Below are positions 28,955-60,431 of a stretch of DNA of 64,000 nt, piece after piece. The stretch lies in the NCBI RefSeq assembly GCF_013009075.1, contig NZ_CP053108.1:2294001-2358000 (forward strand), given 5' to 3'. The notes under the pieces were generated by a model. The model worked only from the letters and a program-made list of their open reading frames with translations. It had not been told where the DNA came from and searched no databases. The position numbers and the translations under genes were made by a program. The stretch comes from Halomonas sp. TA22 (GTDB taxonomy: Bacteria > Pseudomonadota > Gammaproteobacteria > Pseudomonadales > Halomonadaceae). Position 1 is the stretch's first letter. Every line of letters starts with the position of its first letter.

Positions 28955-30862
28955 ATGAAGCTGTTCGACGAAATTCCCGCCGAGCGTCCGGCCACGCCGC
29001 TGCTCGACACGCTGGATACCCCCGTGGCGCTGCGGGCCATGACCCCGTCCCAGCTGCGGCAGGTGGCCGATGAACTGCGCGCCTACCTGCTCTATAGCGT
29101 GGGTTGCAGTGGCGGTCATTTTGGCGCCGGGCTCGGTGTCGTGGAGCTTACCGTGGCGCTTCACCATGCGCTGGAGACACCCTACGACCGTGTCGTCTGG
29201 GACGTGGGGCACCAGGCCTATCCGCACAAGATCCTGACCGGTCGACGCGAGGCGATGCCGCGCATTCGCCAGTATGGCGGGTTGGCGGCGTTCCCGCGCC
29301 GCGCCGAATCGGAGTACGACACCTTCGGTGTGGGGCATTCCAGCACGTCGATCTCGGCGGCGCTGGGCATGGCGCTCGCCGCCCGCGCACGCGGCGAGAA
29401 GCGACGTGTCTGCGCGGTGATCGGTGACGGTGCGCTCACCGCCGGAATGGCCTTCGAGGCGCTGGCGCATGCCGGGCACGTCGATGCCAATCTGCTGGTG
29501 GTGCTCAACGACAACGAGATGTCGATCTCCGAGAATGTCGGCGGCATCGCCAGCTATCTGGCACGTATCCTCACCAGCAAGCCCTACACCGCGATGCGCG
29601 AGAACAGCAAGCGCGTGCTCTCGCATCTGCCCGGTGCACTTGAGCTCGCCAAGCGCACCGAAGAGCACGTCAAGGGCATGGTCAGCCCGGCCACGCTGTT
29701 CGAGGAGATGGGCTTCAACTATATCGGCCCGATCGACGGTCATGACCTGGCGGAGCTGGCCCATACGCTGCGCAACATGCGCGATCTGGAGGGCCCCCAG
29801 TTCCTGCATGTCAGGACCCGCAAGGGACGCGGCTTCCAGCCCGCCGAGGCCGATCCCATTGGCTACCACGCCATCACCAAGTTGGAGAAGAGCGTCGAGC
29901 CGCCGCCGGTCCCAAGCAGTCCCGCGCCGAAGAGACCCAAGTACTGCAACGTGTTCGGCGACTGGCTGTGCGACATGGCAGCCGTCGATCCGCGGCTGAT
30001 CGGCATCACCCCGGCGATGCGTGAAGGCTCGGACCTGATCCGCTTCTCGCTCGAGTATCCGGAACGCTACTACGATGTGGCGATTGCCGAGCAGCATGCT
30101 GTCACGCTTGCCGCCGGCATGGCTTGCGAGGCGATGAAGCCGGTGGTGGCGATCTACTCCACCTTCCTGCAGCGTGGCTACGACCAGCTGATCCACGATG
30201 TGGCAGTGCAGAACCTCGATGTCACCTTCGCCATCGACCGTGCCGGCCTGGTCGGCGAGGATGGCCCTACCCATCACGGCAGCATGGACCTCTCCTTCCT
30301 GCGCTGCATTCCCGGCATGGTGATCCTGGCACCGGCCGACGAGGCCGAATGTCGCGCCATGCTGTCGGCGGCCTACCATCACCCGGGGCCGGCGGCGGTC
30401 CGCTATCCGCGCGGCAGCGGACCGGGCGTGACGATACCCGAGCATCTCGAGCCGCTTGAGATCGGCAAGGCCGAGGAGCGGCGCAAGGGCAGTAGGGTGG
30501 CGCTGCTCGCTTTCGGCAGCCTCAACACGGCAGCAGCCGAGGTTGCCAAGCGGCTCGATGCCACGCACATCAACATGCGCTCGATAAAACCGCTTGATCG
30601 AGGGGTGATTATTGCCGCGGCGGGCGAGCATGAGCTGCTGGTCACCCTGGAGGAGAACGTGATCGCCGGTGGTGCCGGAAGTGCGGTCAACGAGCTATTG
30701 GCAAGCGAAGGCGTACAGGCGCGAGTGCTCAACCTGGGCTTGCCGGATGCTTTTGTCGAGCATGGCAAGCCACAAGAGTTGCTCGAGGAGTGCGGATTGA
30801 CGACCGAAGGGATCGTCAAGGCCATCGAGCAGCGGTTCGCCGCATCAAGGGGCATCTCCTAA
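28955..30862 (+). CDS. dxs: 1-deoxy-D-xylulose-5-phosphate synthase
   Basis: Thiamine-diphosphate enzyme at the head of the methylerythritol phosphate pathway, condensing pyruvate and glyceraldehyde 3-phosphate. The 635 residues show [38 protein letters not shown] with the conserved His, the ThDP-metal motif [18 protein letters not shown]...[42 protein letters not shown] with the catalytic Glu, [32 protein letters not shown] and a C-terminal transketolase domain. Length is standard. Last gene of xseB-ispA-dxs; GTTGCGC/GCGCAAC after its stop is a stem without a U-run. Confidence 0.97.
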
Positions 30863-31248
30863 TGTTGCGCTGCAATGGCGCAACAGGGCGAAAGAAGACT
30901 TCATTTGGTGCGTCGTTACTCGCCATCGAGGGCTTCTTTTCCAGCCGAATTGGCCTGATTTTAAATTAAGACATTGTTTTTTAAAGGAAGAAAAAAAAGC
31001 GGCACGATTTTCGTAAGGGTATAGACGTAGGTCAGGAGGAGAATCGGACAGTGTACTCCTCGTCATGGCCTGACCCCTTTTCAACGTCGCACCCCATCGG
31101 GTCGCGATATACCGAGTGAGCTGGCGTGCTCCCCTAGTCCCCTTCGGGGGGCTTTTTTTTGTCCGAAAATTGTCAGGAGTTCCCCTGCGCAGCCTGGCGG
31201 TGTAGGGTCGAGTCAACGAGGTCACTTCTACGGTGGCGGTGCCATGGC
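30863..31248. other. Gene-free region with a structured, amtB-derived 3' part
   Basis: After dxs comes a stem (GTTGCGC with GCGCAAC, 30864-30884), an AT-rich stretch, then GGTCAGG paired with CCTGACC (about 31030-31077) enclosing AGGAG/CTCCT, and finally a segment matching the end of amtB plus its terminator (see 31062-31160). No protein-coding frame is convincing. The last 88 bases before the transporter at 31249 hold its leader; no strong ribosome binding site is seen there. Confidence 0.5.
31062..31160 (+). repeat. Decayed second copy of the amtB 3' end and terminator
   Basis: From GGCCT at about 31068 to the T-run at 31153-31160 this segment aligns with the complement of 58678-58585. TTCAACGTCGCA, the codons before the amtB stop, is shared exactly; about ten bases over the stop differ; then 31102-31152 matches 48 of 51 positions, including the hairpin CCCCTTCGGGG. 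The stem and eight Ts should still terminate transcription of the dxs operon. The coding part is not open. Best read as a remnant of a duplicated ammonium-transporter tail, or a dispersed terminator repeat. Confidence 0.7.
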
Positions 31249-58159: not shown

Positions 58160-58582
<423 letters not shown>

Positions 58583-58584
58583 TT

Positions 58585-58608
58585 AAAAAAGGCCCCCCGA
58601 AGGGGGCC
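58585..58608 (-). terminator. Terminator between amtB and the second glnK
   Basis: GGCCCCC and GGGGGCC form a seven-base stem around CGAA; six A residues upstream on the + strand give the U-run for minus-strand transcription. The same hairpin, with flanks, recurs at 31130-31160. Read-through or a separate promoter would be needed to express the downstream glnK. Confidence 0.8.
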
Positions 58609-58678
58609 AGGGGAGCACGCCAGCTCACTCGGTCTATCGCGATTACTTCTTTGCGACGTTGAACTCGGGGTAGGCCTC
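58585..58678 (-). repeat. Reference copy of the amtB-tail/terminator repeat
   Basis: This is the intact copy: the last amtB codons, stop, a 35-base spacer and the terminator. Its complement aligns with 31062-31160; the stretch from TCGCGATA to the end of the stem matches 48 of 51 bases there. Confidence 0.7.
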
Positions 58679-59893
58679 CAGACCGCACTCGGCCAAGTCG
58701 ACCCCTTCATACTCTTCCTCTTCGCTGACCCGGATACCCATCACCGCCTTGATAATCAGCCAGACAACCAAGCTAGCGATGAAGACCCAAGCGAAGATGC
58801 CAATGATGCCGATGATCTGGGCGCCGAAGGAAGCATCGCCATTGCTCATCGGTACCACCATGACGCCCCAGATACCGACCACGCCGTGAACCGAAATGGC
58901 ACCGACCGGATCGTCCAGTTTCAGCTTGTCCAGGGTCACGATCGAGAACACCACGATCAGACCACCAATGGCACCGATGATGACTGCGCCCAAGGCGGTA
59001 GGGGCCAGCGGTTCAGCAGTGATCGCGACCAGACCGGCAAGGGCACCGTTCAGGGCCATGGTCAGGTCAGCCTTGCGGAACCACAGCTTGGCGAGGATCA
59101 GGGCGGTAATCACGCCACCGGCGGCGGCGGCATTGGTATTGACGAATACCTGAGCCACGTTGTTGGCCGAGATACCATCGGAGAGCTTCAGCTCCGAACC
59201 GCCGTTGAAGCCGAACCAGCCCATCCACAGGATGAAGGTACCCAGGGTGGCCAGTGGCAGATTGGCGCCGGGGATGGCGTAGATGGCGCCATCCTTGCCG
59301 TACTTGCCCTTGCGCGGACCCAGTACCAGGACCCCGGCCAGGGCGGCAGCAGCGCCTGCCATGTGAACGATACCGGAACCTGCGTAGTCGGAATAACCGA
59401 GGCTATCCAGCCAACCTTCGCCCCAGGTCCAGTAGCCGGAAATCGGATAGATGAAACCGGTCATCACCACGGCGAAGGCCAGGAACGACCATAGTTTCAT
59501 GCGTTCGGCCACGGCACCGGAGACGATCGACATGGCGGTCGCCACGAACACGACCTGGAAGAAGAAGTCGGAACGCATGGAGTAGTAGGGTGCGTCCTCA
59601 CCGCCGGCAGTGATGGCGTCCAAGGTATTCTCATCACCGATCAAGAAGCCCAGGTTAGGCAGGAAGCCGCCGCCGGGACTAGAGTACATGAGGTAGTAGC
59701 CGACCAGCAGATACATGGTACAGGCGATGGCAAACAGCGCGATGTTCTTGGTGAGGATTTCAGCGGTATTTTTCGAACGCACCATGCCGGCCTCGAGCAT
59801 CGAGAAGCCGGCGGCCATCCACATCACCAGTACACCGCATATCAGAAAGTAAAAAGTGTCGAGCGCGTAAGTCAGCTCTGTGAATTCTTCCAT
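58643..59893 (-). CDS. amtB: Ammonium transporter
   Basis: 416-residue Amt/Rh channel with 11 helices. Seen: LDTFYFLICGVLVMWMAAGFSMLEAGMVRSKNTAEILTKN, DFFFQVVFVATAMSIVSGAVAERMKL, the substrate-site region GYSDYAGSGIVHMAGAAAALAGVLVLGPRKG with the conserved Asp and first pore His, and ISVHGVVGIWGVMVVPMSNG with the second pore His. The C-terminal tail (GIRVSEEEEYEGVDLAECGLEAYPEFNVAKK) includes the glycine and acidic residues that couple to P-II. No cleaved signal peptide is evident. Flanked by a glnK gene on each side, all on the minus strand. Confidence 0.96.
   Translation of the reverse strand: MEEFTELTYALDTFYFLICGVLVMWMAAGFSMLEAGMVRSKNTAEILTKNIALFAIACTMYLLVGYYLMYSSPGGGFLPNLGFLIGDENTLDAITAGGEDAPYYSMRSDFFFQVVFVATAMSIVSGAVAERMKLWSFLAFAVVMTGFIYPISGYWTWGEGWLDSLGYSDYAGSGIVHMAGAAAALAGVLVLGPRKGKYGKDGAIYAIPGANLPLATLGTFILWMGWFGFNGGSELKLSDGISANNVAQVFVNTNAAAAGGVITALILAKLWFRKADLTMALNGALAGLVAITAEPLAPTALGAVIIGAIGGLIVVFSIVTLDKLKLDDPVGAISVHGVVGIWGVMVVPMSNGDASFGAQIIGIIGIFAWVFIASLVVWLIIKAVMGIRVSEEEEYEGVDLAECGLEAYPEFNVAKK

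Positions 59894-59984: not shown

Positions 59985-60431
<447 letters not shown>

Follow-up and report, generated by a model that had tools for sequence, protein, structure and literature searches.

Two related stretches of the Halomonas sp. TA22 genome, one at the 3' end of the ammonium transporter gene amtB and the other downstream of dxs, are likely to encode sibling base-pairing small RNAs (sRNAs) under nitrogen control, of which one would be derived from the amtB 3'UTR and the other would be free-standing, and both could pair with the 3' end of the mRNA of acs (acetyl-CoA synthetase). We hold this reading with considerable confidence from the comparison of sequences. Positions are those of the window, by which we mean the whole 64,000-nucleotide stretch that was analyzed (contig NZ_CP053108.1, positions 2,294,001 to 2,358,000 of the forward strand).

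Two copies of one structured element

The element lies at 31086-31160 (+) and at 58657-58585 (-), and these are the sole two copies in the complete 3.73 Mb genome, where a search returned the query itself with an E-value of 2e-37, the dxs-side copy with 1e-18 and the next match with 0.27. The dxs-side copy aligned to the amtB copy over 58 nt with 93% identity and, within the window, a 25-nt core pattern allowing up to 3 mismatches gave 2 matches versus 0.00 expected. The similarity of the two stretches had been pointed out in a preliminary description of this DNA and was confirmed, with TTCAACGTCGCA exact at 31080-31091 followed by a divergent stretch and then 48 of 51 identical bases from TCGCGATA onwards. 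The ten bases that had been described as divergent do differ in sequence, but they make up the loop and inner stem of a hairpin (hairpin 1) whose structure is kept in both copies, being GTCGC-AAAGAAGTAATC-GCGAT with the stop codon within the loop in the amtB copy and GTCGC-A-CCC-CATC-GGG-TC-GCGAT in the dxs-side copy.

The order of parts is the covarying hairpin 1, a core and an intrinsic terminator with a U-tail. For the dxs-side copy, referred to below as the standalone copy, hairpin 1 (GTCGCACCCCATCGGGTCGCGAT) was placed at 31086-31108 (+) from family covariation and folding, the core ACCGAGTGAGCTGGCGTGCTCC at 31111-31132 (+), and the terminator, which has a U8 tail, at 31137-31160 (+) from its sequence and the covariation of its helix (helix 3). 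The corresponding parts of the amtB copy were hairpin 1 at 58636-58657 (-), where the 5' arm is formed by the last amtB codons, the core ACCGAGTGAGCTGGCGTGCTCC at 58612-58633 (-) and, in the gap before glnK2, a terminator ending in a U6 tail at 58585-58608 (-). A 17-nt segment of the core, GTGAGCTGGCGTGCTCC (31116-31132 in the standalone copy), was identical in 62 of 62 aligned members, part of this identity being due to selection as the members were collected via core similarity. The core is able to form GAGC-UGGCGU-GCUC, a small hairpin with the hexaloop UGGCGU.

All six pairs of hairpin 1 were changed on both sides with pairing kept among the aligned members, and helix 3 also covaried. The whole-structure covariation score was 0.232; none of 500 shuffles, whose mean was 0.140, came up to this value, and sliding the structure brought the score down to 0.05-0.10. 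Swapping the 5' halves between members cost approximately 3-4 kcal/mol (p 1e-7 for amtB copies and 1e-8 for the others). Terminators with U8 (standalone) and U6 (amtB copy) tails are a hallmark of base-pairing sRNAs, as is a conserved pairing segment beside variable, structure-conserved parts, and the earlier remark that conservation is highest in the non-coding part, pointing to a function in RNA, was borne out. No Rfam family reached its gathering score in the window and targeted relaxed searches gave far sub-threshold matches only; a tRNA search found nothing, and the core was absent from the virus contigs searched.

By sequence search the core was present in 227 of 275 sampled Halomonadaceae genomes, and a covariance model raised this to 232 of 275, a few of the weakest matches being near noise; the copy number in this sample was usually one to three per genome. 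When wider samples of the order and class were scored with the model, matches outside the family obtained approximately 26-35 bits versus approximately 42-97 bits for members, and in the five outside matches that were aligned the terminator fitted and the core was missing. The exact 19-mer was found in at least 119 stretches of a named collection, the 80 listed loci all being named as Halomonadaceae genera, with Halomonas, Vreelandella, Chromohalobacter, Salinicola, Modicisalibacter and Billgrantia among the matches listed. As judged by sequence, the element is one family restricted to Halomonadaceae and is not recognisable elsewhere. It had also been suggested that the unit is dispersed; it is indeed found behind unrelated genes, but with two copies here and so few in related genomes it is no dispersed repeat, and a REP-like repeat, which would have tens to hundreds of copies per genome, was ruled out on the same counts.

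The amtB copy and the putative free-standing gene

The minus-strand order in the window is glnK1, amtB, element, glnK2. The host mRNA of the first copy carries amtB (58643..59893, -), an ammonium transporter of the marine subtype TIGR03644, with the PII protein gene glnK1 as the upstream operon gene (59985..60323, -; the PII model begins at residue 27 of the longer ORF 59985-60401, which places the true start within it) and a second PII protein gene, glnK2, behind the sRNA terminator (58160..58498, -; PII model from residue 23 of the ORF). Members of this class normally occupy the gap that separates amtB from a PII (glnK) gene, and in them the final amtB codons supply the 5' arm of the hairpin, the stop codon falling in the loop in most; in some g5 (Chromohalobacter-type) genomes the arms CCAACAAG and CTTGTTGG flank the stop codon. 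The amtB copy overlaps the last amtB codons and ends at the amtB terminator. A -24/-12 element of the glnK1-amtB operon, TGGCACGTTTCACGCT, lies at 60385..60400 (-), and 13 of 19 genomes had one of the same type at or near the equivalent position. In one genome of genus g23 (L355, G251) the amtB copy keeps the core without a clear hairpin 1 and scores low, at 48 bits, which gives the impression of an amtB copy losing strength in the presence of a standalone gene.

In the second class the upstream neighbour gene differs among genera. It is dxs (28955..30862, +) in this window, though not in general, and a dxs-linked function was ruled out because the neighbours differ in other genera. A -24/-12 promoter-like element, CGGCACGATTTTCGTA, is found at 31000..31015 (+) and, taken together with the terminator, predicts a standalone sRNA transcript of approximately 135 nt (31026..31160, +), the start being placed approximately 12 nt after the -12 element. 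The first part of this predicted RNA (31026-31080) is an extra foldable 5' segment around GGAGGAGAATCGGACAGTGTACTCCTC which is missing from the amtB copy. The motif [CT]GGC[ACG][CT]-N5-TCG[CTA] was present upstream of 39 of the first 42 standalone loci versus 0.05 expected per 260-nt locus, at 26-132 nt from the core in all but one locus (230 nt), and the three exceptions, which belong to genus g7, have a GG-N10-GC element with slightly different letters that was read by eye. In a wider set, in which some genomes were counted repeatedly, the motif was found for 68 of 85 non-amtB copies versus 0 of 62 amtB copies. In some genomes (L352, L353) there is an additional non-amtB copy for which no sigma54-type motif could be recognised.

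The spacing of the motif is that of a sigma54 promoter (GG at -24, GC at -12), with C replacing the consensus T (TCGC for TTGC). Most standalone copies read TGGCRCG-N4-TCGC, the -12 part being TCGY or NCGC and not the textbook TTGC, and the standalone element in the window is less typical (CGGCACG-N4-TCGT, with GT instead of GC). Because the glnK1-amtB promoter is of the same type, the C in place of T looks like a habit of Halomonadaceae nitrogen promoters and not a flaw. Sigma54-type promoters here mostly have CGC at -12, not TGC, and exact TGGCACGNNNNTTGCW occurs once in the whole genome; a shifted -12 preference of the Halomonadaceae RpoN is possible. Just behind the dxs stop, and approximately 117 nt upstream of the -24/-12 element, lies the NtrC-like dyad TTGCGCTGCAATGGCGCAA (30865..30883), a putative enhancer which fits TGCRCY-N5-GGYGCA. 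Similar dyads, a motif scored without chance control, were seen approximately 100-135 nt upstream in approximately 10 other standalone copies, and NtrC sites were recognisable in only some standalone copies.

A complement of the core at the end of acs

A pattern search of the TA22 genome for the reverse complement of the core gave two non-self matches with 2 mismatches, one antisense to a long coding frame and one in the 3'UTR of acs, where GAAGCACGCCAGCTCAG lies between the stop codon and the terminator. A second, weaker anti-core, GAGTACGCCAGCC, is located 30 nt upstream of the main one (L314, G000:C1:1728562-1728610, -), and acs may have two anti-core sites in this genome. As the acs site was first found by searching the genome itself, the other genera are the actual test, and the acs ends were fetched from 30 genomes of many genera with no use of the motif.

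A complement of 13-17 nt recurred at acs in seven genera. Strong complements were found in g5, g15, one g8 genome and g17, with predicted duplex energies between -28 and -33.5 kcal/mol and z scores as low as -5.8 versus dinucleotide shuffles. In g12 (L336/L337) G-U pairs preserve the complement (GGAGCACGTTGGC and GGAGCGTGTCAGC; p 0.05 and 0.03, which are weak alone), and in g21 (Salinicola-type) its position is further downstream, immediately ahead of a T-run (AGGGAAGCGCGCCAGCTTTCCGGG). For one g5 genome (L325) the predicted anti-core loop, ACGCCA, is the exact complement of the core hexaloop UGGCGU. The acs anti-core was present in 13 of 24 sRNA-positive versus 0 of 6 sRNA-negative genomes (one-sided Fisher 0.02, kinship ignored) and could not be found at acs in the other 11 sRNA-positive genomes (g2, g3, g7, g13, g18, g23 and part of g8). 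This pattern fits a conserved RNA-RNA contact, and the acs mRNA is probably a partner of the sRNA, whether as target or as sponge.

Other complements were also considered. In a g7 genome whose acs is without the motif, two anti-core hairpins in tandem, GGTGCACGCCAGCTCACC and GGGGAGTACGCCAGCTTTTTTCTCCCC (L374, G024, around 3196815), lie behind an ABC-transporter-like gene approximately 5 kb from the standalone sRNA, and may serve as a dedicated sponge where the acs 3'UTR of the genus is free of the motif. Complement matches in one g8 and one g23 complete genome were rejected, having no terminator behind them and mostly overlapping long open frames. Start-codon sites of the form GGAGCAC..ATG numbered 63 in the genome versus 17 in the reversed control, as expected of a Shine-Dalgarno sequence. 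The strongest start-codon target examined, a DUF1338-like gene by our own reading, was not conserved, and whole-genome pattern searches with one candidate tested found no conserved start-codon target.

In the model that we propose the first copy would be the 3' end of the glnK1-amtB mRNA, either released from it or acting within it, as GlnZ is from glnA, and the second would be expressed as a free-standing gene by a sigma54-type promoter of its own. Under nitrogen shortage NtrC and RpoN would raise both sRNAs, Hfq, to which the U-tail appears suited, would protect them, and the core would act via base pairing. The anti-core ACGCCAGC before the acs terminator, in some genomes in a predicted hairpin loop, would be one conserved partner, and pairing at the 3' end of the acs mRNA would either destabilise this mRNA or trap the sRNA. 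If acs is a target, acetate use would be cut under nitrogen shortage; if it is a sponge, the sRNA would be taken up when acs is expressed. It is possible, though we put it forward tentatively, that the result is a nitrogen-acetate circuit in which the sibling sRNAs would meet the acs anti-core hairpin by loop-loop contact (UGGCGU/ACGCCA) and then form a long duplex, so that acetate assimilation and nitrogen supply would set each other via mRNA 3' ends.

Alternative explanations and related systems

The preliminary description had taken the dxs-side copy for the decayed remnant of a duplicated amtB whose tail was retained solely as the terminator of dxs. There is a real resemblance behind this proposal, as TTCAACGTCGC matches the last amtB codons and CAACGTCG, which is encoded by the last amtB codons, recurred in 16 of the 100 distinct sequences upstream of non-amtB copies (10 of 55 clusters) versus 0.06 expected from shuffling. 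Because CAACGTCG recurs in standalone copies, an old common origin of both classes, amtB coding tail included, is plausible, and to this extent the suggestion of a shared origin can be retained. A decayed remnant is nevertheless very improbable, given that the core of the dxs-side copy is unchanged, its hairpin is intact and kept by compensatory change, standalone copies carry their own promoter motif (for the dxs-side copy a sigma54-type one that lies 85 nt upstream), and the counterparts known from most genera mostly lie behind genes other than dxs.

We also consider it unlikely that the element is only a conserved terminator with an upstream stabilising hairpin, used at two places without any action in trans. 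It does hold a good intrinsic terminator, which would end the amtB and the sRNA-gene transcripts, but termination requires neither a promoter of its own nor a 17-nt core that is identical in every aligned member while the flanking helices vary, and the complements in the 3'UTR of another mRNA would be left unexplained. Similarly slim chances are given to a core that serves as the site of an RNA-binding protein, with the acs complement being incidental; an invariant core with a fixed hexaloop would suit such a site, as would the lack of the acs partner in approximately half of the sampled sRNA-positive genomes, but the length of the acs complement, its recurrence across genera and its preservation by wobble pairs in one of them argue against it. 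An sRNA of the proposed kind which is not nitrogen-controlled, the motif serving another sigma54 activator, is doubtful though a little less so: an NtrC box can be made out at some of the loci only, but the first copy lies within the glnK1-amtB-glnK2 cluster, and the operon promoter is of the same form. We prefer the reading of two sibling sRNAs under nitrogen control.

NrsZ is an NtrC/RpoN-controlled sRNA of Pseudomonas. The standalone copy resembles it in being a free-standing sRNA gene with a sigma54 promoter and a link to nitrogen, and differs in its lineage-specific core, which has no Rfam match at gathering score, the two being set apart by description. NcS25 of Burkholderia was considered and found to be unrelated. 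GlnZ is an sRNA from the glnA 3'UTR of Enterobacteriaceae that is released by RNase E and represses sucA (PMC9731577). Like the amtB copy as proposed here, it sits at the end of a nitrogen-controlled mRNA whose terminator it shares, and has a conserved pairing segment and a carbon/nitrogen link, whereas the host gene (amtB here, glnA there) and the lineage differ, there is no sequence resemblance, and the amtB copy has a sibling whose gene carries a sigma54-type promoter. Membership in the GlnZ family was rejected, the GlnZ seed UUGCCGUGGAAA (PMC9731577) being absent from both copies and the host gene being amtB. SroC, a sponge of GcvB from the gltI 3'UTR (PMC9731577), offers a precedent for the arrangement proposed at acs, in which a stretch of 3'UTR close to a terminator binds an sRNA, although the partner RNAs are unrelated and the anti-core here is in acs. 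SdhX (PMC6393394) comes from the 3' end of the sdh-suc operon and is likewise an mRNA-tail sRNA of central metabolism; host gene, sequence and lineage differ.

A literature search of incomplete coverage returned neither a report of an sRNA from an amtB mRNA nor a natural sRNA that takes part in nitrogen control in Halomonas, and this proposed small RNA family of salt-loving bacteria is apparently undescribed. Because both forms coexist in many genera, the pair is a clean case for relating an mRNA-tail sRNA to a free-standing sRNA gene, and the acs 3'UTR is a specific candidate partner for the sRNA. The family that carries the element includes Halomonas bluephagenesis, which is used as an industrial chassis and whose PHB rises under nitrogen limitation or on disruption of sigma54 (PMC13101641), and a nitrogen-controlled sRNA able to pair with the mRNA of acs would be of immediate relevance to its carbon flow.
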